A stretch of DNA of 45,898 nt from a virus, in the IMG/VR virus record IMGVR_UViG_3300047547_000189, positions 1 to 45,898 of that record; one strand, written 5' to 3'. Shown piece after piece: positions 4,244-37,632 of the stretch. Numbering within the stretch: position 1 is the stretch's first letter; each line of letters begins with the position of its first letter. The position numbers and the translations under genes are program-made. The notes below the pieces were generated by a model. It saw only the letters and a program-made list of their open reading frames with translations, was not told the origin of the DNA and searched no databases.

Positions 4244-4506
4244 ACTCTCTAATATACATAACTGGGTATGAAAATCAAGATACTGGAGTTAAAGAATTTG
4301 TTATTGCGGCTACTAGTCCAACTCCTACACACATTAAAGGAGATAAAATAATTATTAAAGGAAAGGAAGAAATAAAAGAATGTGTTGTAGTTGGAGTGAT
4401 TACTACACTACTTATAGAAGAGAATAACCATATTACCTTAGTGTATGTTAGAGTAATTAAACCTATTTCATTCAAAGATAATCTTCCTGGATACACTAAC
4501 AATTAA
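4240..4506 (+). CDS. 88-aa beta-rich protein, unknown function
   Basis: The start codon overlaps the previous stop (ATGAA/TGA), indicating translational coupling. The sequence alternates hydrophobic and polar residues (LIYITGYENQ, VVVGVITTLLIEE, HITLVYVRVIKPIS), typical of a small beta-barrel or SH3-like fold. There are no Cys pairs or catalytic signatures. Function is unknown. Confidence 0.7.
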   Translation: MNSLIYITGYENQDTGVKEFVIAATSPTPTHIKGDKIIIKGKEEIKECVVVGVITTLLIEENNHITLVYVRVIKPISFKDNLPGYTNN

Positions 4507-4749: not shown

Positions 4750-4863
4750 ATGGCAAAGATTCTATTACCTTTTGTAGATGATTACGGAAACGAATACATT
4801 CCTAAAGATCTTCTATATACTTCCTATATGGCAAGATACTATTTCTACAAAGGAGCCCTCTAA
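4750..4863 (+). CDS. 37-aa ORF sharing its start with the next gene
   Basis: The recurrent leader (TTTAGGAGATTCT) precedes ATG at 4750, and the ORF runs to TAA at 4861-4863. Its first 16 nt (4750-4765) are identical to the start of the following 351-aa gene (4865-4880), giving the same MAKIL N-terminus. It then diverges (LPFVDDYGNEY, MARYYFYKGAL). The DDYGNE motif is also seen in the frame-disrupted gene near 1040. It may be a leader peptide, a remnant of duplication, or a real small protein. Confidence 0.55.
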   Translation: MAKILLPFVDDYGNEYIPKDLLYTSYMARYYFYKGAL

Positions 4864-8283: not shown

Positions 8284-8484
8284 ATGTCCCAATTTCCAGA
8301 GATAACTCATATTGTTCTTTATACAAACACATCTAACCCTTTGGTTATTGAGGTAAAGAAGGCTACTAATGAGGAGTTAGCTATTTGGATATCTCAAGCA
8401 CTAACATACGATAAGAGTCACAGAGAGTGGAGAAAGAAAATAGTTAAACCTTATTTCACCCCTCCACCCTGGCCTTCTTATTAA
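8284..8484 (+). CDS. 66-aa protein, paralogue of next gene
   Basis: The start follows AAAGGAATAGCTT. The core (VIEVKKATNEELAIWISQAL) aligns with the next gene's core (RINVDKATHDELREWVNQAP): both have a short strand, K-A-T-x-x-E/D-E-L and a W-x-x-Q-A helix, then a basic helix (EWRKKI versus TLRKKL). They therefore look like a tandem duplication. Function is unknown; the C-terminus here is Pro-rich (PYFTPPPWPSY). Confidence 0.7.
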   Translation: MSQFPEITHIVLYTNTSNPLVIEVKKATNEELAIWISQALTYDKSHREWRKKIVKPYFTPPPWPSY

Positions 8485-8487
8485 CTT

Positions 8488-8503
8488 CTTAAATAATTTT
8501 AAG
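8488..8503 (+). promoter_or_regulatory. SD-sequestering hairpin with TAAT loop
   Basis: CTTAAA (8488-8493), loop TAAT and TTTAAG (8498-8503) form a stem that can extend by two pairs (a T-G wobble and T-A). The AAGGAA SD (8501-8506) of the gene at 8511 lies in the 3' arm. Architecture and loop match the hairpin at 1484-1499, so this looks like a recurrent regulatory element. Confidence 0.5.
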
Positions 8504-8510
8504 GAATCAT

Positions 8511-8693
8511 ATGGAAATTATCTTAAAAACTTCTGAAGGAGAGAAAAGAATTAACGTAGATAAAGCTACACATGATGAGTTAAGAGAATGGGTTAATCAA
8601 GCTCCAGACGAGAAGGCTAAAACACTACGTAAGAAACTTATGTATGTATTTTTATATAGCAATTCTCATAAGAAACCTGAGAGTGAGTTATAA
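8511..8693 (+). CDS. 60-aa protein, paralogue of previous gene
   Basis: It shares the KAT-x-x-EL-x-x-W helix region with the 66-aa protein just upstream (see that entry). The start has its SD inside a hairpin (8488-8503), unlike its sister, suggesting the two copies are expressed at different levels. The C-terminus is basic and polar (SNSHKKPESEL). It is the last gene before a GC-rich promoter island. Function is unknown. Confidence 0.7.
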   Translation: MEIILKTSEGEKRINVDKATHDELREWVNQAPDEKAKTLRKKLMYVFLYSNSHKKPESEL

Positions 8694-8710
8694 TATTCCC
8701 GGCGGGGTGC

Positions 8711-8739
8711 TTGACACCTATCCCCGACCCTGGTACATT
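8711..8739 (+). promoter_or_regulatory. Strong sigma70-type promoter P2
   Basis: TTGACA (8711-8716), a 17-nt spacer and TACATT (8734-8739) form a near-consensus host promoter inside a GC-rich island (about 8697-8775) that contrasts with the AT-rich surroundings. A small inverted repeat CTGTC/GACAG follows the -10 box and could be an operator or initial transcript hairpin. It lies 80 nt before a host-codon-adapted gene and the non-coding RNA region, so it probably drives both at high level. Confidence 0.7.
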
Positions 8740-8819
8740 CGCATCTGTCGGTTGGACAGGCACCGATTCTAGTTAAAGCCTGTTAAACTTTTAAACTCTG
8801 TTCTTACCAAGGAAATAAA

Positions 8820-9479
8820 ATGACTGAAACCACCACTGCTGACAACACCAATGTTCAGGAACTTGTTGATCCGCAAAAGCTCTTTGATGAAAAGGAATTT
8901 AAGTTCCGATTCAAGAAGGATAAGCTGGAGAATCAACGCCCCTCGATTGAAGTTAAGTTGGCTGTTCCTTCTTTTGATGGCATTGTTTCAATTCTTTCGA
9001 ATGCCAAGACTGAAGAAGGTAAGAAGGAATATGATCTTCTCTTGGATGCCATGTACGAAGTTATTCGTTCGGGTGCCCTGGAAAAGATTTCGAATGATGA
9101 AAAGCTGACTTCGGAAAACTTCCCGTTTGGTGAAGTTACCTGGAAGGCAATTGCTAATCAAGATCGTGCTGATCGTCGTGCTTCTTCGATTCCTGTTGAA
9201 CTGTGGAATGAATTTGCTACGGATTACATTAGCATCATGCCGGCACTTACCAATAAGTCTCCGGAAGCTGTTACCAATGCGACTATTGTTTACCTGAAGA
9301 AGTTCTCGCAAGTTAAGCAAGATAAGAAGTCGCTGGAAAAGCTGAAGGAACAACTGGCTATCTATACTCAAAACACCAAGCGTGGTGAAGATTTTGTGGA
9401 AATCCTTGATCTTCTGCAACGTAAGGTGGATGTCTATCTGAAGGCAGATGATGTTGAACAGTTGATTGCTAATCTGTAA
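8820..9479 (+). CDS. Highly expressed 219-aa protein, unknown function
   Basis: The start follows AAGGAAATAAA, and the gene has promoter P2 upstream. It is sharply different from its neighbours in codon use: Arg is CGN with no AGA, Lys mostly AAG, Leu often CTG and Ser TCG, as expected for very high expression in the host. The protein is acidic at the N-terminus and helical. The C-terminal half has PVELWNEFATDYISIM, then SPEAVTNATIVYLKKFS and a final helical region. The same order is found in the 45069-45719 product, so the two look like paralogues. The C-terminal pattern recurs in other phages as unnamed abundant early proteins. DNA binding is possible but unsupported. Confidence 0.8.
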   Translation: MTETTTADNTNVQELVDPQKLFDEKEFKFRFKKDKLENQRPSIEVKLAVPSFDGIVSILSNAKTEEGKKEYDLLLDAMYEVIRSGALEKISNDEKLTSENFPFGEVTWKAIANQDRADRRASSIPVELWNEFATDYISIMPALTNKSPEAVTNATIVYLKKFSQVKQDKKSLEKLKEQLAIYTQNTKRGEDFVEILDLLQRKVDVYLKADDVEQLIANL

Positions 9480-9493
9480 AGAGCATTACAACG

Positions 9494-9771
9494 AGGAAGT
9501 TTGGGTAGTTTGAGGTTATGAACCCAGTAAATGTTGATATACTAGACCTGAGACATTCTTCGCTCCGCGTAAATTAAGATTCTCAATCCTCTAACTTATC
9601 AATCCTGACAGTGCAGTAAGAAAGAGGAAAGAGATACTCACTCCCTATCCTGTTATCTAGTAGGTTCCCATTAACCGATCGCGGTGCCGATATCCAGCAT
9701 AATGCTGGTAAGTGTAAGTCCAAAGCCAGTAAGTTAATGTAGAAGCTAGACGAAGGATATAGTGACTTCCT
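9494..9771 (+). ncRNA. Putative large branched non-coding RNA
   Basis: No credible gene lies in 9480-9890. Pairings seen by eye: closing stem AGGAAGT (9494-9500) with ACTTCCT (9765-9771); TGGGT/ACCCA (9502-9506/9522-9526); TACTAGA/TCTAGTA (9540-9546/9656-9662), which encloses TGAGA/TCTCA (9549-9553/9581-9585) and TCCTCT-AA-CTTA/TAAG-AA-AGAGGA (9587-9598/9617-9628); and CATTAAC/GTTAATG (9669-9675/9733-9739), which encloses CCAGCA-TAA-TGCTGG (9694-9708). The helices nest consistently into a multibranch fold, and ATATCC/GGATAT (9690-9695/9755-9760) could add a pseudoknot. It is transcribed after an abundantly expressed gene. It may be analogous to large ornate phage RNAs (GOLLD, ROOL), but I see no sequence match to them. 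Confidence 0.6.
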
Positions 9772-9791
9772 AGGCAAGAAGTAAAAAGGCC

Positions 9792-9882
9792 TATATATTT
9801 CCCTGTATCTGATTTGTACTTAGAGAAGTTGGTCTAAGTTTCAATGTACAGAAACAGCACTTCGGATATAGGGAAATATATA
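9792..9882 (+). ncRNA. Structured RNA domain with 18-bp closing stem
   Basis: Positions 9792-9809 pair with 9865-9882 over 18 bp (13 Watson-Crick pairs, one G-U, four more Watson-Crick pairs). Inside are TGTA/TACA plus CTTAGA/TCTAAG (9815-9824 with 9833-9838 and 9847-9850; 8-nt bulge), and a small GAA/TTC hairpin (9851-9863), giving a three-way junction. The element ends 8 nt before the ATG at 9891, which has no properly spaced SD; the only SD-like purine run (AGGGAAA) is buried in the 3' arm. It may be the 3' domain of the preceding RNA or a cis-acting switch for the next gene. Confidence 0.6.
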
Positions 9883-9890
9883 ATATTATC

Positions 9891-10148
9891 ATGAGAGACT
9901 ATCAACCAATCTGGTTAAAATTAAAAGCTCTCCCACGCGACAAGGCTGAAACTGAGGGGGTTTCTGTCATCGCTAATAGAAATCTTCACCCCAGAATTTT
10001 AAAGGCTGTAGTTAAAGAAAAGTGGATGGACATGGCATACAAACTAGCTAATGAAAAGTACAATGCCATACTATCTCATTCTACAGAGCACTCTAAGATA
10101 ACATTCTTTCTGAGGCAGGAGAGAATATATACCTCAGAAGATCTATAA
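9891..10148 (+). CDS. Conserved small phage protein, unknown function
   Basis: This 85-aa protein matches by eye a family common in tailed phages: a Trp near the start followed by K-L-K, then NLHPRILKAVVKEKWMD, then YKLANE, then a C-terminal strand KITFFLRQE. Members have no known function. The start has no normal SD; the closest purine run is 17 nt away and base-paired in the 9792-9882 element, so translation is probably controlled by that structure. The stop overlaps the stem of a terminator. Confidence 0.75.
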   Translation: MRDYQPIWLKLKALPRDKAETEGVSVIANRNLHPRILKAVVKEKWMDMAYKLANEKYNAILSHSTEHSKITFFLRQERIYTSEDL

Positions 10149-10172
10149 CCCACTTTCTGGTGGGTTTATTTT
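10147..10172 (+). terminator. Rho-independent terminator
   Basis: AACCCAC (10147-10153) and GTGGGTT (10160-10166) form a 7-bp stem with loop TTTCTG, followed by TATTTTTA. It begins within the stop codon of the preceding gene and closes the P2 transcription unit (abundant gene, RNA region, 85-aa gene). Confidence 0.75.
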
Positions 10173-10193
10173 TATGCACTAAAGGATTCTTAA

Positions 10194-10430
10194 ATGACTA
10201 TTTCATATTATGAACTTCATGGCGAGATTATAGCTGAAACTTCGAAGGCTATTCTATTTGAGGTTAAGTATGTTAATGAGACTCCTCTAGAAACTAAGAG
10301 GCGAATTTGGTTTCCTCTCTCTCAGATTAATAAGATTCATAGAACTACACCAGAGAACCTAGAATCTGGAGAGGATGCTGATATGATTTCTGTGCAAGAC
10401 TGGATTATTAAAGAGAAAGGTTTGAACTAA
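10194..10430 (+). CDS. 78-aa phage protein (WFPLSQ motif)
   Basis: The start follows AAAGGATTCTTAA. The pattern 'KAILFEV...RRIWFPLSQI...ISVQDWIIKEKGL' matches a small-protein family frequent in phage replication regions, where an N-terminal beta unit ends in W-F-P-x-S-Q and the C-terminus in W-I-x-x-K-G-L. The function of that family is not known to me. It is the first gene after a terminator, so it may have its own promoter, which I cannot identify. Confidence 0.75.
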   Translation: MTISYYELHGEIIAETSKAILFEVKYVNETPLETKRRIWFPLSQINKIHRTTPENLESGEDADMISVQDWIIKEKGLN

Positions 10431-19313: not shown

Positions 19314-19750
19314 ATTCCCCTACTACCACTAGCTACTCTAATTTCGCACCTACCCATCATTTTGTTACGATTAAAAATAAACAAGAACATGCAGAAACTA
19401 TTCGTTATGATGTCTTCGTAGAGAAACTTTTTAAGAAAGGTTCGCCCGCAGAAGAGAGAATGCATGCGGCACTTGGAATCTGCGGAGAGGCTGGTGAACT
19501 TGCAGATGCTATTAAGAAAGAAGTAGTTTATAATCGTGAACCTGACCGCAAGAATATTGTTGAAGAACTTGGTGACTTGAAGTTCTATATTCGTAAGGTT
19601 CAAAATCTTTACGATATCACTGACCAAGAGATTGATGATAAGAATGCAGACAAGCTTAGTATCAGGTATGCCGGTTTGGAATACTCTGACGAGAAAGCTA
19701 ATGCGCGGGCGGATAAGGTAAATGAATCCGCAGATCCAAAGGAAGCCTAA
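19310..19750 (+). CDS. MazG-like nucleotide pyrophosphohydrolase
   Basis: The 146-aa protein has the all-alpha NTP-PPase signature: GICGEAGELADAIKKE (Glu60, Glu63) and NIVEELGDLKFYI (Glu85, Glu86, Asp89), the four acidic residues that bind magnesium. The C-terminus has the conserved KLSIRYAGLEYSDEKANAR seen in phage members. Family members hydrolyse (d)NTPs or, for bacterial MazG, lower ppGpp; in phages they may adjust nucleotide pools or stress signalling. It overlaps the helicase by 4 nt and the next gene by 29 nt. Confidence 0.88.
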   Translation: MNSPTTTSYSNFAPTHHFVTIKNKQEHAETIRYDVFVEKLFKKGSPAEERMHAALGICGEAGELADAIKKEVVYNREPDRKNIVEELGDLKFYIRKVQNLYDITDQEIDDKNADKLSIRYAGLEYSDEKANARADKVNESADPKEA

Positions 19751-28468: not shown

Positions 28469-30214
28469 TTACTTTAAAGAGCCAGGGCCAGGTGTATAAG
28501 GTTTTCTACTCTCTTGAGTTAACTGATTACCCTTAAGAGGATTACGGATAGTATCTAAGATAAGATTTCCAACACCTTGATTTGCATAGGCATCATAAGC
28601 TAACACTCTAGAAAGATATTGTCCTAACATAGTAGGATCTGTAAGATCTAAAGTAGGCTGCCCAGCTCCTGTTCTAACATTATAACCCATACCATTCTTA
28701 GGTAACACAATTCCCATACCTAAAAGATTCTTATGTTGCTGGTTTAACAAATTACCTTTTCTATAGATATCTGCTAAACCGTAGAACTCGGTAGTAGTTA
28801 TGGTGCCTTTCTTAACAGCATCAGTTGCAAGACCTAATACAATTTTAGGATCATTAAGAGGTTGATTTGCTTGGATAGCAGGAAGAAGAATTTTCTGTGC
28901 GATAGGTAATCTCATAAGATCAGAGATGCCAGGATTCTCAGCAGTCCCGTCTCCTAAGAAACTCTTCAAATCTCCAATATCAAAAATGTTTCCTGAGTTA
29001 GGAGCTACAGAACTAAATTGCTGCGTGACCAAAGTTTTAACTGCAGAGTTAAAAGCTCTAGCTGTGCCTGCTTTATCTTTCCTATCTAACATAGGATTCT
29101 GATTTAACGCTTCATGGGCCTGTCTAAAGATATCTAATACATCAGCTTTAGAGTTTAAAACTTCAGTATTCGCAGCAGCCAATGCAGCTTCTGCTTCTGC
29201 AGGAGTAGCTCCTAACATTGGAATACCTAATGTTTTAGACTTATCTCCAATTTCATAGGCCATCTGCAATTCAGCACTGCCGCCCGCCTTGAATCTTTCG
29301 AGCTGATATTTGGCTTCACGTCCAGTGATTGCTGAGTGACCTAAAATACTTCTACCTGTATTAATCTTTTCTAACAATGCCTCATCAAAATCTACCTTAT
29401 CTCTATCTGCAGCTTCTTTTTCTTCCTTCATTCTTTGATTAAAAGATCTATTTAACTTCTGATCATTTAATGAATCAAGAGTAGCTTGTAATCTGATTTC
29501 GCCTTCTTTATGATTTTGTACCCCATAAAGAATATTTAGCTGTTCTCTAGAAGTATTCATTGCAGCTTGTACGCCGGCAAGATTATACTTCATCCCTTCT
29601 AACTGTGCTTCTTTAGCTTTTAAGAGATAAGCATTACCAGTTAACCTAGCAGTAGATTCTACAGAAGCGGCAGATAAAGAAGGAGCTAAAGTTTTATAGG
29701 TCTGTGCAGCACTTTGAACTAACTGATTAGTTTCAGAAAGTTGCTGAGTAATAACAGCAGTCTCTTTAGCTGCCCCTTCTAACTTTTTAGCTGTAGGAAT
29801 CTTTTCAAACTGCGCCGCAATCCAATCTCCTGGAGAATTCCAGAAACTAGTCTCATTTAATTTTCTATATTCAGAAAGATGATTTCTTGTCTCTGCAGCT
29901 TTCTCTCTCCGTAAAGTCATTAATTTAGAGAGCTCATCCATTCCAGCAAGCGGATTTACACCTGCAGCATTAGCAGCTCTTAAAGTAGCTTCTTGAGAAT
30001 TAAGTGCAGCCAATCCTGCAGTTGCAGAAATAACCGTAGCATCTTGGGCATTCTGAGTTTGTAAAGTACTTACATCCTTAAGAATGCCTTCTGCCGCTTT
30101 ATTACTCTCTACAGTAGCAGTATATACTTGAGAAGAGTTAACTAATAAATTCTTTACAGTATCAACAATAAGCTGTTGATTTTCCTGAGGGGTATTCTTA
30201 GACGGCTCGTCCAT
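28469..30214 (-). CDS. Internal virion protein, coiled coil
   Basis: The 581-aa protein is dominated by Ala/Gln/Leu-rich helices (VESNKAAEGILKDVST, AAKETAVITQQLSETNQLV, KEAQLEGMKYNLAGVQAAM), with a charged central helix (QRMKEEKEAADRDKVDF). It is a typical middle component of the podovirus ejection complex (like T7 gp15/P22 gp20 in position, not in sequence). It overlaps the preceding 228-aa gene by 17 nt and has TGGAGA as SD. The C-terminus has a Gly/Asn-rich stretch (GIVLPKNGMGYNVRTGAG). Confidence 0.75.
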   Translation of the reverse strand: MDEPSKNTPQENQQLIVDTVKNLLVNSSQVYTATVESNKAAEGILKDVSTLQTQNAQDATVISATAGLAALNSQEATLRAANAAGVNPLAGMDELSKLMTLRREKAAETRNHLSEYRKLNETSFWNSPGDWIAAQFEKIPTAKKLEGAAKETAVITQQLSETNQLVQSAAQTYKTLAPSLSAASVESTARLTGNAYLLKAKEAQLEGMKYNLAGVQAAMNTSREQLNILYGVQNHKEGEIRLQATLDSLNDQKLNRSFNQRMKEEKEAADRDKVDFDEALLEKINTGRSILGHSAITGREAKYQLERFKAGGSAELQMAYEIGDKSKTLGIPMLGATPAEAEAALAAANTEVLNSKADVLDIFRQAHEALNQNPMLDRKDKAGTARAFNSAVKTLVTQQFSSVAPNSGNIFDIGDLKSFLGDGTAENPGISDLMRLPIAQKILLPAIQANQPLNDPKIVLGLATDAVKKGTITTTEFYGLADIYRKGNLLNQQHKNLLGMGIVLPKNGMGYNVRTGAGQPTLDLTDPTMLGQYLSRVLAYDAYANQGVGNLILDTIRNPLKGNQLTQESRKPYTPGPGSLK

Positions 30215-30884
30215 TTAAGTTCTCCACTTTAGAAGTAATCACTTCCCTAAGCAAACCCAAGAGGAAACAAACAGGGTGACCGATAATAACACTACCCACA
30301 CCCAGAATGCTTGTCTTACGTAATACCAAATATTGATATCTAGCTTTAGCCACGGGAAGAAAGAAATTGGAGAGTACTTCATTATTCTTCATCCGAGCTA
30401 CCATAGGAATAGCCCACCACTGGTAACCACTAACAATTAAAGGATTGAGAGATAAGAAATGAGCATGCCCTGCTTCATATAGATTTCTATCTAACTTACC
30501 TTGACGAACTAACTCTGTGCAGATAACTGTACCAACGCCTGCTCCAATATTTTGGCTATCTTTATCCATATCAGTGCGTTGATCTGAATATTCTACATTC
30601 TCAGCCTGCAAAAGAGCCAATTCTCCTGCTAATTTAGCAGTCATGTCTTGTGCCATTAGTGCTTTAGTAGTAGAGCCAAAACCTCCAGAAGCATTTTCTC
30701 CAGAAGATAGAGCTGCTAATCCTTGATCACTGGATAAGATATCATAAATAATTTTATCGTAACCTTCTTGAGAAATCTTTTTACTTTTATTCGTAAGTTG
30801 TTTTACATTACCATATTGTTGTGACCAACCAAATTGGCCAGAAATACCGGTAGCTGCGCCACTTCCATTAGCTCCAATAGTCAT
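30198..30884 (-). CDS. Internal virion protein with CTELxRQG motif
   Basis: The 228-aa protein contains ICTELVRQGKLD at about residues 121-132, then LIVSGYQWWAIPMVARM and PVAKARYQYL, a constellation repeatedly seen in phage virion proteins encoded just before the ejection proteins. The N-terminus is Gly-rich with helices (GYDKIIYDIL, MTAKLAGELALLQ). Its hydrophobic Trp/Pro segment could contact membranes. The SD is TAGGAG. It overlaps the 581-aa gene. Exact role is unknown; head-to-tail or ejection-complex member by context. Confidence 0.7.
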   Translation of the reverse strand: MTIGANGSGAATGISGQFGWSQQYGNVKQLTNKSKKISQEGYDKIIYDILSSDQGLAALSSGENASGGFGSTTKALMAQDMTAKLAGELALLQAENVEYSDQRTDMDKDSQNIGAGVGTVICTELVRQGKLDRNLYEAGHAHFLSLNPLIVSGYQWWAIPMVARMKNNEVLSNFFLPVAKARYQYLVLRKTSILGVGSVIIGHPVCFLLGLLREVITSKVENLNGRAV

Positions 30885-36405: not shown

Positions 36406-37632
36406 TTAACCAGCAGCCGCAGCTGTGAGGTTAGTAATAAGAGCGTTTGCCGGAGGATTCTTAACAACGCAAGTTAACTCAGAAGTGATGGTACCGCCGA
36501 CAGCATCAATACCGTTATCGACAGCATTACCATTCGTGTTAAATTCTTCTTTCTTAGTCTTACGCCCGCCAAGATATGCGATGCGGAAAGTTGACATATC
36601 AACAGCGATTGCATATTTACTCCAAGCGGCGTTACTATTAAGAAGTGGGTGTTCAATCATCTTGAATCTACCACGAGCAATAGCAAATTCAGAGAATTGC
36701 AAACCATAACTGGTAGCACCATTGGTAAGATGGTACGTGGAATTTAACCGACCAATGTTATTTAACACCTTCTTTGCCGTACCACCAACAAAAAGAATAC
36801 GCTCATTACCAACTTTCGGATCAGTTGCCTGATTGAAAACTGGATCAAGAGCAGTTTCTAATTGAGTATAGTTAGTAGTGGAACCAGCAGTAGTAGTATT
36901 AACTGCTGCGTAGCTAGGAGGATAGTAAGTCAAGTCAGACAGAATGTTAAGCAAACCATCCATAGTACGGAAAGGTTGGCCATTTCTGCTACCTTGAGAC
37001 TTCTGACCAAACAGAAGAGCCTTCTCAATATCAGCTGCATGGAAAGCTGCACAATCTTGACGATTCTCAGCAACCGTAGATTCCCCTGCAATAACTTGAG
37101 TGGCTTCAGCAGAACGCGAAAGACTCCAGGTATTACGGAAGATTTGAGTCAGGTTAGTAATCCGAACAGGATTGATAGCCAGAGCATTAGGACGAATAGA
37201 CGATTCTTCAAATGCGTTACCAACTTGATAAAGTTGGACATCATCTGCAATAGCCGCCGCAGCTACAGTACCAACACCGCGTTGAACAGTGATAGTAGTT
37301 GCACCAGGAACAGTGTTAATTAAAATAGTCTCACCAGTAGATTCTGCACGCAGAAGCATACCAGGAAGAATATTAGCAGAACTGTCTACAGTAAACAAAG
37401 TAGTGGTACCATCTGCAATAGCACCATTTAATTGAACCATGGGGAAAACCATAGTCTTAGTAAAGAAACCATGCTCCGGTTGGAGAGCGGTCTCAGTAGC
37501 TAACATTGAAGTTAAACCAAACAAAGGAGCCTGACCATTCGGCATGAGCCGAGTAATCATACTTGCAAACGATTTAGCTGCAAGATCCTGCGTAAGGTTC
37601 GTAGTATTAGTATTCCAAATACCGGTAGTCAT
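36406..37632 (-). CDS. Major capsid protein, SU10/DUF5309 type
   Basis: The 408-aa protein follows scaffold and decoration genes. It has features of the SU10 major head protein/DUF5309 family: NPVRITNLTQIFRNTWSLSR with following SAEATQVIAG, then DIEKALLFGQKSQG and GQPFRTMDGLLNIL, and a C-terminal TFRIAYLGGRKTKKEEF. An inserted domain near residues 75-135 (TTLFTVDSSANILPG, VQRGVGTVAAAAI) resembles beta insertions seen in capsid proteins. The codon set is host-like (mostly CGN for Arg), unlike neighbouring genes, as fits the most abundant virion protein. Fold HK97-type by family. Confidence 0.88.
   Translation of the reverse strand: MTTGIWNTNTTNLTQDLAAKSFASMITRLMPNGQAPLFGLTSMLATETALQPEHGFFTKTMVFPMVQLNGAIADGTTTLFTVDSSANILPGMLLRAESTGETILINTVPGATTITVQRGVGTVAAAAIADDVQLYQVGNAFEESSIRPNALAINPVRITNLTQIFRNTWSLSRSAEATQVIAGESTVAENRQDCAAFHAADIEKALLFGQKSQGSRNGQPFRTMDGLLNILSDLTYYPPSYAAVNTTTAGSTTNYTQLETALDPVFNQATDPKVGNERILFVGGTAKKVLNNIGRLNSTYHLTNGATSYGLQFSEFAIARGRFKMIEHPLLNSNAAWSKYAIAVDMSTFRIAYLGGRKTKKEEFNTNGNAVDNGIDAVGGTITSELTCVVKNPPANALITNLTAAAAG

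Follow-up and report, generated by a model that had tools for sequence, protein, structure and literature searches.

A phage intergenic gap read as a mosaic of small RNA modules, with a putative translational leader and a recurrent pseudoknot

What occupies a gap of 411 nucleotides (nt; positions 9480-9890) between two conserved viral genes, if it encodes no credible protein? This question was raised by the viral record IMGVR_UViG_3300047547_000189, of which the whole stretch of 45,898 nt (45.9 kb) was analysed and is called here the window. The gap lies between the end (9479) of the gene for a protein designated p219 and the start (9891) of the gene for a protein designated p85. A preliminary description, made from the letters of the window, had proposed for positions 9480-9771 a single large multibranched RNA. 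Comparison with related loci shows that the gap is a mosaic of small RNA modules between the two conserved genes, and that the window holds three of these modules, designated A, B and G (Table 1). The conserved elements of the gap look like cis-acting elements. The earlier claim that no credible protein is encoded was borne out: the sole open reading frame (ORF) within the gap has a length of 64 amino acids (aa) and lies on the minus strand, and no conserved protein was found there.

Selection on RNA structure, as previously suggested, is supported, but the fold, the limits and the kind of RNA that had been proposed are not. The whole gap folds better than shuffled sequences (z-score, z, -3.48; 0 of 100 shuffles equally good), and this signal is due to a hairpin of 21 base pairs (bp) at 9792-9882 (z -6.66; 0 of 200), outside the coordinates initially considered. 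Within 9480-9771 the minimum free energy (MFE) is ordinary (z -1.39; 17 of 200 shuffles equally good). The three 7-mer pairs named as stems (9494-9500/9765-9771, 9540-9546/9656-9662 and 9669-9675/9733-9739) are all present, but their frequency is not above chance: 9480-9771 contains five perfect complementary 7-mer pairs, where shuffles have 2.7 on average, and at least five were found in 97 of 500 shuffles. The first of them, proposed as the closing stem, is absent from the minimum-energy fold, and its 3' arm overlaps a strand (9765-9768) of a conserved pseudoknot. Evolutionary support was obtained for 9669-9675/9733-9739, which is kept through three compensatory double changes relative to the related locus L165, but not for the other stems.

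Relatives of the locus were gathered by helicase-based and p85-based scans; they are designated by L-numbers, some of which come from the same contigs. The usual order in these loci is p219, gap, p85, and the comparison of gaps was performed on 65 distinct homologous gaps. Their length varies from about 80 to more than 1000 nt, and they carry RNA modules in free combination, gained and lost independently, with small genes or transfer RNAs (tRNAs) in some of them. The gap of L023 is occupied by two tRNA genes (4285-4356 and 4776-4847), and in more distant relatives (L031, L045, L060, L062 and L063) terminator-like hairpins, several of them with T runs, replace modules A and B. In named phages, no homologue of the gap was detected by sequence.

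A gene-free gap that folds, as a whole, better than shuffles would be consistent with a single large non-coding RNA acting in trans, of the GOLLD and ROOL kind. Such an RNA is nevertheless considered very improbable, as module combinations and lengths vary among relatives, the closing stem and the global fold are unsupported, and the gap consists of small modules and not of one conserved multibranched fold. The absence of a visible sequence match, noted earlier, was borne out with Rfam 15, which shows no gathering-level match in the gap. At the gathering cut-off only three tRNAs were detected in the whole window and only tRNAs in eleven related loci, and at relaxed thresholds 8400-10200 and two relatives carrying A and B gave only weak, chance-level matches far below gathering.

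Module B was recognised through a hairpin with the consensus UCCUGRRCAUGANNUAAAACUGYYCA, which is found repeatedly immediately upstream of A, is directly adjacent to it in many relatives, and is present in at least 120 stretches of viral contigs. A second helix can be read from the flanks, where the bases preceding UCC pair with the bases following AUGA. The order of the helices is S1-S2-S1'-S2', and B is therefore an H-type pseudoknot, with loops CC, UG and UAAAAC. The diagnostic pair of the knot is formed in 105 of 105 distinct sequences, where 44% would be expected by independence, and it is represented by AU (37), GC (37), UA (16) and CG (15). In the alignment A8, whose rows include copies found with a pattern leaving the varying S1 bases free and copies found via p85, this pair is formed in 78 of 78 rows, and the covariation was equalled in 0 of 500 shuffles.

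The window copy of B was located with a model, R2, that was built without the window sequence and does not include the S1 pairing. Against the whole window R2 gave a single clear match, at 9768-9793 (30 bits, E 5.9e-7), the runner-up scoring 11.6 bits. At this site the S2 hairpin has the conserved UCC, GA and AAA(A)C positions, and S1 is complete, with four of four pairs. No Rfam 15 family matches B, which is apparently an RNA family not yet described.

The placement of B is intergenic, only 7 of 131 copies being within a same-strand ORF of at least 50 aa; 47 of 131 are placed 7-8 nt after a stop codon, and in 15 of 124 a tRNA-Asp or tRNA-Asn directly follows. Several copies per contig are common, and the contexts span many kinds of phage. 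In at least 14 contigs (e.g. L084, L088, L108, L117, L147, L148 and L158), B was observed between a stop codon and a tRNA-Asp gene located a few nt further on. A role in stop-codon read-through was set aside, all three stop codons being found before B. A search with the B-tRNA stretch also identified a B carrier in Synechococcus phage S-CRM01. On this genome, R2 gives seven candidate copies at E up to 0.1 (weakest E 0.085), with at least three possible S1 pairs although R2 did not model S1. They are mostly located inside the tRNA cluster: two are 4 nt before a tRNA, one is between tRNA-Met and tRNA-Leu and one after tRNA-Tyr, while a further copy follows a gene and another is upstream of gp32.

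Elements of antitermination or of RNA polymerase loading, acting on the transcribing polymerase, might be distributed in this manner, B being intergenic, often multi-copy, and located in diverse phages near tRNAs and stop codons. For such antitermination elements, the comparison is with the put RNAs of phage HK022. This explanation is considered improbable: the gap of distant relatives appears to hold terminator-like hairpins, and termination, rather than read-through, may be ancestral there. B is here read as a 3'-end or processing element because it is placed after stop codons and before tRNAs.

Module A, represented by the covariance model R1, was examined on an alignment of 16 elements found by pattern. 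Its consensus comprises the helices P1 (16 bp), P1b (3 bp) and P2 (7 bp) around an invariant asymmetric joint, CUGGUAA / RUCAAWGCAGAAA, and a long near-perfect stem (15-21 bp) is present in every A element. For the structure of 26 pairs, 95.7% of the cells are paired in the 16 relatives against 67.3% in shuffled alignments (0 of 500), and double-sided changes were found at 21 of the 26 pairs, with far lower values in shuffled and slid controls. The inner helix P1b is replaced as a unit (CUG/CAG, AUG/CAU, AAC/GUU or AUC/GAU), as read directly in L165, L022, L016 and others; the tally of these replacements is no test, because the search behind it demanded complementarity. Among the variants, AUG/CAU is associated with an inserted hairpin and GCAUAAAA, whereas GGUUAAAA accompanies AAC/GUU. 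When A and A' were aligned together with MAFFT, the inserted hairpin was set against P1, and no model was made from that alignment.

Over 79 loci, the matches of R1 fall in the p219-p85 gap, with one weak match on the opposite strand of the palindromic stem. Outside the phage loci, a strict A pattern searched in one genome per species of 84,980 bacterial and archaeal species did not find A; it gave eight matches only, of which the inspected ones (L289 and L285) look coding and the others have a weak score or none. In the window, the best plus-strand match of R1 is the hairpin that accounts for the folding signal of the gap; it is weak (14.8 bits, E 0.21 for the whole window), and, the stem being palindromic, a score is also obtained on the opposite strand. 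A rule-based test for the core pattern, whose spacing limits were set after seeing the site, found the pattern in the window only at this hairpin and in 0 of 200 shuffled windows. The window copy is probably a divergent member of a strongly covarying family, and claims on the function of A rest mainly on the relatives because of this divergence.

The relation between A and the start of translation was examined on 31 non-redundant elements, picked by core and stem and not by the presence of an AUG. An AUG is found exactly 15 nt into the 3' arm of P1 in 18 of them, which do not represent 18 independent events because the elements share ancestry; three more have it at 16-18 nt, and any other offset is represented by 0 to 4 elements. 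No Shine-Dalgarno-like 4-mer precedes the AUG in any of 21 elements. The frame opened by the in-stem AUG is that of p85 in 10 cases, a peptide of 5-8 codons in 8, and a frame of 30-40 codons in 3; in several gaps (L202, L215, L217, L218 and L219) the stop codon of the short frame overlaps or abuts the start of p85. Our reading is that the start codon is a part of module A itself.

The gap may thus be a mosaic cis-acting control region on a transcript running from p219 into p85, in which A would be the translational control leader of p85. With, in most relatives, a buried start codon, no Shine-Dalgarno sequence and a frame that is either p85 or a leader peptide abutting or overlapping it, translation of p85 would require A to be opened or recognised. 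The expression level could be set by a ligand at the conserved joint of A, for instance a protein, which may be p85; a regulation of p85 by its own product through A is possible. Once the transcript is processed, B would shield or mark the 3' end of the upstream message, in the window that of p219, which cleavage or melting of the long stem of A would separate from p85. The whole of this cis-acting reading, with A in control of p85 translation and B as a shield or mark at the 3' end of the preceding mRNA, is drawn from sequence comparison and is given slightly better than even confidence.

Several observations weigh against it. The link with the start codon is frequent and not universal, 10 of the 31 relatives having no AUG at 15-18 nt. 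The window copy of A is itself divergent: it scores weakly, its joint is two nt longer, its GUAA side is changed and its P1 contains no AUG; the AUG of p85 is located there 8 nt beyond P1, so that the AUG-at-15 feature is not found in the window. In L071, L077 and L297, A precedes another gene, which argues against a strict autoregulation by p85. B is also found beside tRNAs and far from p85, and its role thus cannot be p85-specific; its part at 3' ends is inferred from position.

A pure region of mRNA processing or stability, in which the stem of A would be a site of RNase III type and B would cap the new 3' end of the p219 mRNA, with no translational switch, was considered as the first alternative. 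The long near-perfect stem of every A element fits it, as does the fact that B abuts A in many relatives and also the 5' ends of tRNAs, the expected cleavage site of RNase P. However, neither the conserved GUAA/RUCAAWG joint nor an AUG fixed at +15 in the stem would be needed for simple cleavage by RNase III, and this alternative is considered somewhat unlikely. Modular, fast-changing cassettes beside a conserved gene would be typical of arms-race loci, and the modules could accordingly serve in trans as RNA decoys for host or defence factors; a geometry fixed relative to the start codon and a strict intergenic placement point to cis action, and decoys are judged highly unlikely. Going further than the cis-acting control of p85, A could be a self-contained initiation device free of Shine-Dalgarno sequence, a cassette mobile between phages that presents or releases an AUG built into its closing stem 15 nt from the core and is coupled by tiny leader peptides to the gene that follows, and B could represent a novel, widespread class of pseudoknots at mRNA ends; this stronger proposal is regarded as rather unlikely.

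In the window, A and B are in direct contact, positions 9792-9793 being at once the last two bases of S2 of B and the first two of P1 of A. The two modules therefore cannot both fully form on one molecule, and the overlap is either a small trim at the base of the stem or a switch.

Module G is an elongated stem structure for which a single homologue is available. Its core matches L165/L237 by blastn (85.7% over 56 nt, E 2e-11), its helix is the one kept through compensatory changes described above, and its MFE has a z of -2.30 (5 of 200 shuffles equally good); a pattern scan for G returned L165 only. A degenerate copy of A at 9645-9765, suggested by GTTAATGTAGAAGCTAG, was rejected, R1 giving only 5.3 bits and the stretch being better explained as G. 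The first part of the gap, 9480-9635, folds with a z of -1.57 (13 of 200 shuffles equally good), and R1 and R2 gave no match above chance in it.

Other recurrent elements were observed in the gaps of relatives. Those of L202, L212, L219, L222, L227 and L294 contain another module, GUGCAUUGGAAC...GUUAAAAC...GGCCAGUGUGCA, which has a closing stem as in A' and seems to be devoid of the GUAA/RUCAAWG joint. A short hairpin, GACACCCCGGAAAGACGGGGAC, is recurrent directly upstream of A or of related elements in the gaps of L202, L203, L206 and L211 (also L019), and a larger recurrent structure with GGACGCAAUCC ... CACCUGAG..GUACAGGG is found in the gaps of L025, L061, L235 and L250.

The window encodes a Dda-like helicase, a DNA polymerase, a primase/helicase and a terminase; its helicase and polymerase are closest to those of Polaromonas phage Tiera, Aeromonas phage P5 and the PaP2 group, with an identity below 40%. 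Homologues of p219 occur at the equivalent place in about 50 helicase-neighbour loci; a single-sequence scan of viral contigs found no homologue, and no PHROG or Pfam family was matched. Its AlphaFold2 (AF2) model (predicted local distance difference test, pLDDT, 81) has no significant fold match in the PDB. The p85 family is present in nearly all related loci. The protein is rich in basic residues, its gene in the window has no visible Shine-Dalgarno sequence, and its AF2 model (pLDDT 92.6) has no significant fold match in the PDB or in the viral library. A remote homologue of p85 was observed in a cultured phage, Aeromonas phage P5 (P5_0041; L281, 8494-8805; hidden Markov model E 6e-10), where the gene overlaps the upstream gene and the RNA gap is absent.

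Table 1. Coordinates of the modules and flanking genes in the window, and of candidate B copies in Synechococcus phage S-CRM01
Feature	Position	Strand	Remarks
p219	8820..9479	+	219-aa conserved protein, function unknown, upstream of gap
First part of gap	9480..9635	+	no conserved element recognised
Module G	9638..9766	+	elongated stem structure; conserved core 9677-9732; helix 9669-9675/9733-9739
Module B	9765..9793	+	H-type pseudoknot
B S1	9765-9768/9779-9782	+	ACUU/AAGU
B S2	9771-9775/9789-9793	+	UAGGC/GCCUA
B loops	9769-9770; 9776-9778; 9783-9788	+	L1 CC; L2 AAG; L3 AAAAAG
Module A, probable divergent copy	9792..9882	+	21-bp hairpin directly before p85, position as motif A in relatives
A P1	9792-9812/9862-9882	+	21 bp
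A P1b	9809-9811/9849-9851	+	CUG/CAG; alternative to innermost P1 pairs
A P2	9819-9823/9834-9838	+	CUUAG/CUAAG
A conserved joint	9841-9854	+	UCAAUG(UA)CAGAAA
p85	9891..10148	+	85-aa conserved protein downstream of gap; probable target of leader A
B copies, L299 (S-CRM01 100000-149999)	29626-29651, 30828-30853, 36424-36449, 49419-49444, 49527-49552		
B copy, L301 (S-CRM01)	23053-23030	-	
B copy, L302 (S-CRM01)	19683-19708		weak

As this locus illustrates, the intergenic gaps of phages can act as hot spots of RNA modules shuffled like genes. With a near-perfect covariation, and copies in more than 100 contigs of uncultured phages and in an isolated cyanophage, B has a role that is testable now. 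A ties a conserved RNA core to an AUG at a fixed distance without a ribosome-binding site, which makes structured translation initiation in phages testable. Neither A nor B was described in the literature searched, which was open-access only, so that an unseen description is possible.

Several known systems can be compared with these modules. Like GOLLD and ROOL, the gap holds phage-associated structured RNA where genes are poor, but those are single large RNAs, whereas here a mosaic of small modules without Rfam match is found. Ribosomal-protein and RNA-phage translational operators hold the initiation codon in a stem, and expression needs opening or binding. Module A resembles such start-burying operators (cf. 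PMC10931766) in having its initiation codon held in a stem. It differs from them in that the distance between the AUG and a conserved multi-helix core is fixed at 15 nt, no Shine-Dalgarno sequence is present, and a leader peptide of 5-8 codons, abutting or overlapping the real gene, is often opened. For B, the operator pseudoknot of gene 32 in T4 and RB69 (PMC535899, PMC3014915) is alike in being a compact knot in a phage mRNA, and autogenous control of translation offers the same principle. B differs in being mostly located after stop codons or beside tRNAs in many unrelated contexts, not before one gene only, and in its own loop pattern (CC, UG, UAAAAC); in S-CRM01, the copy upstream of gp32 is one, and most copies are elsewhere. 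The small riboswitches of preQ1-I type are H-type pseudoknots of about 30 nt with an A-rich third loop. B is similar to them in size, in its H-type knot and in its A-rich third loop, but it has no Rfam riboswitch match, and its contexts, which include sites between tRNA genes, give no hint of metabolite control over a single pathway. Some copies of B share the string GACGUUAAACU with the coremin Xrn1-resistant RNA of plant viruses (PMC10520033), and a nuclease-blocking role is conceivable; an exonuclease block of coremin type was rejected, the topology being different (B is a pseudoknot) and the hosts of phages being bacteria. A translational leader and a small pseudoknot are known kinds of element, and what is new is the built-in start-codon geometry of A and the breadth of B.
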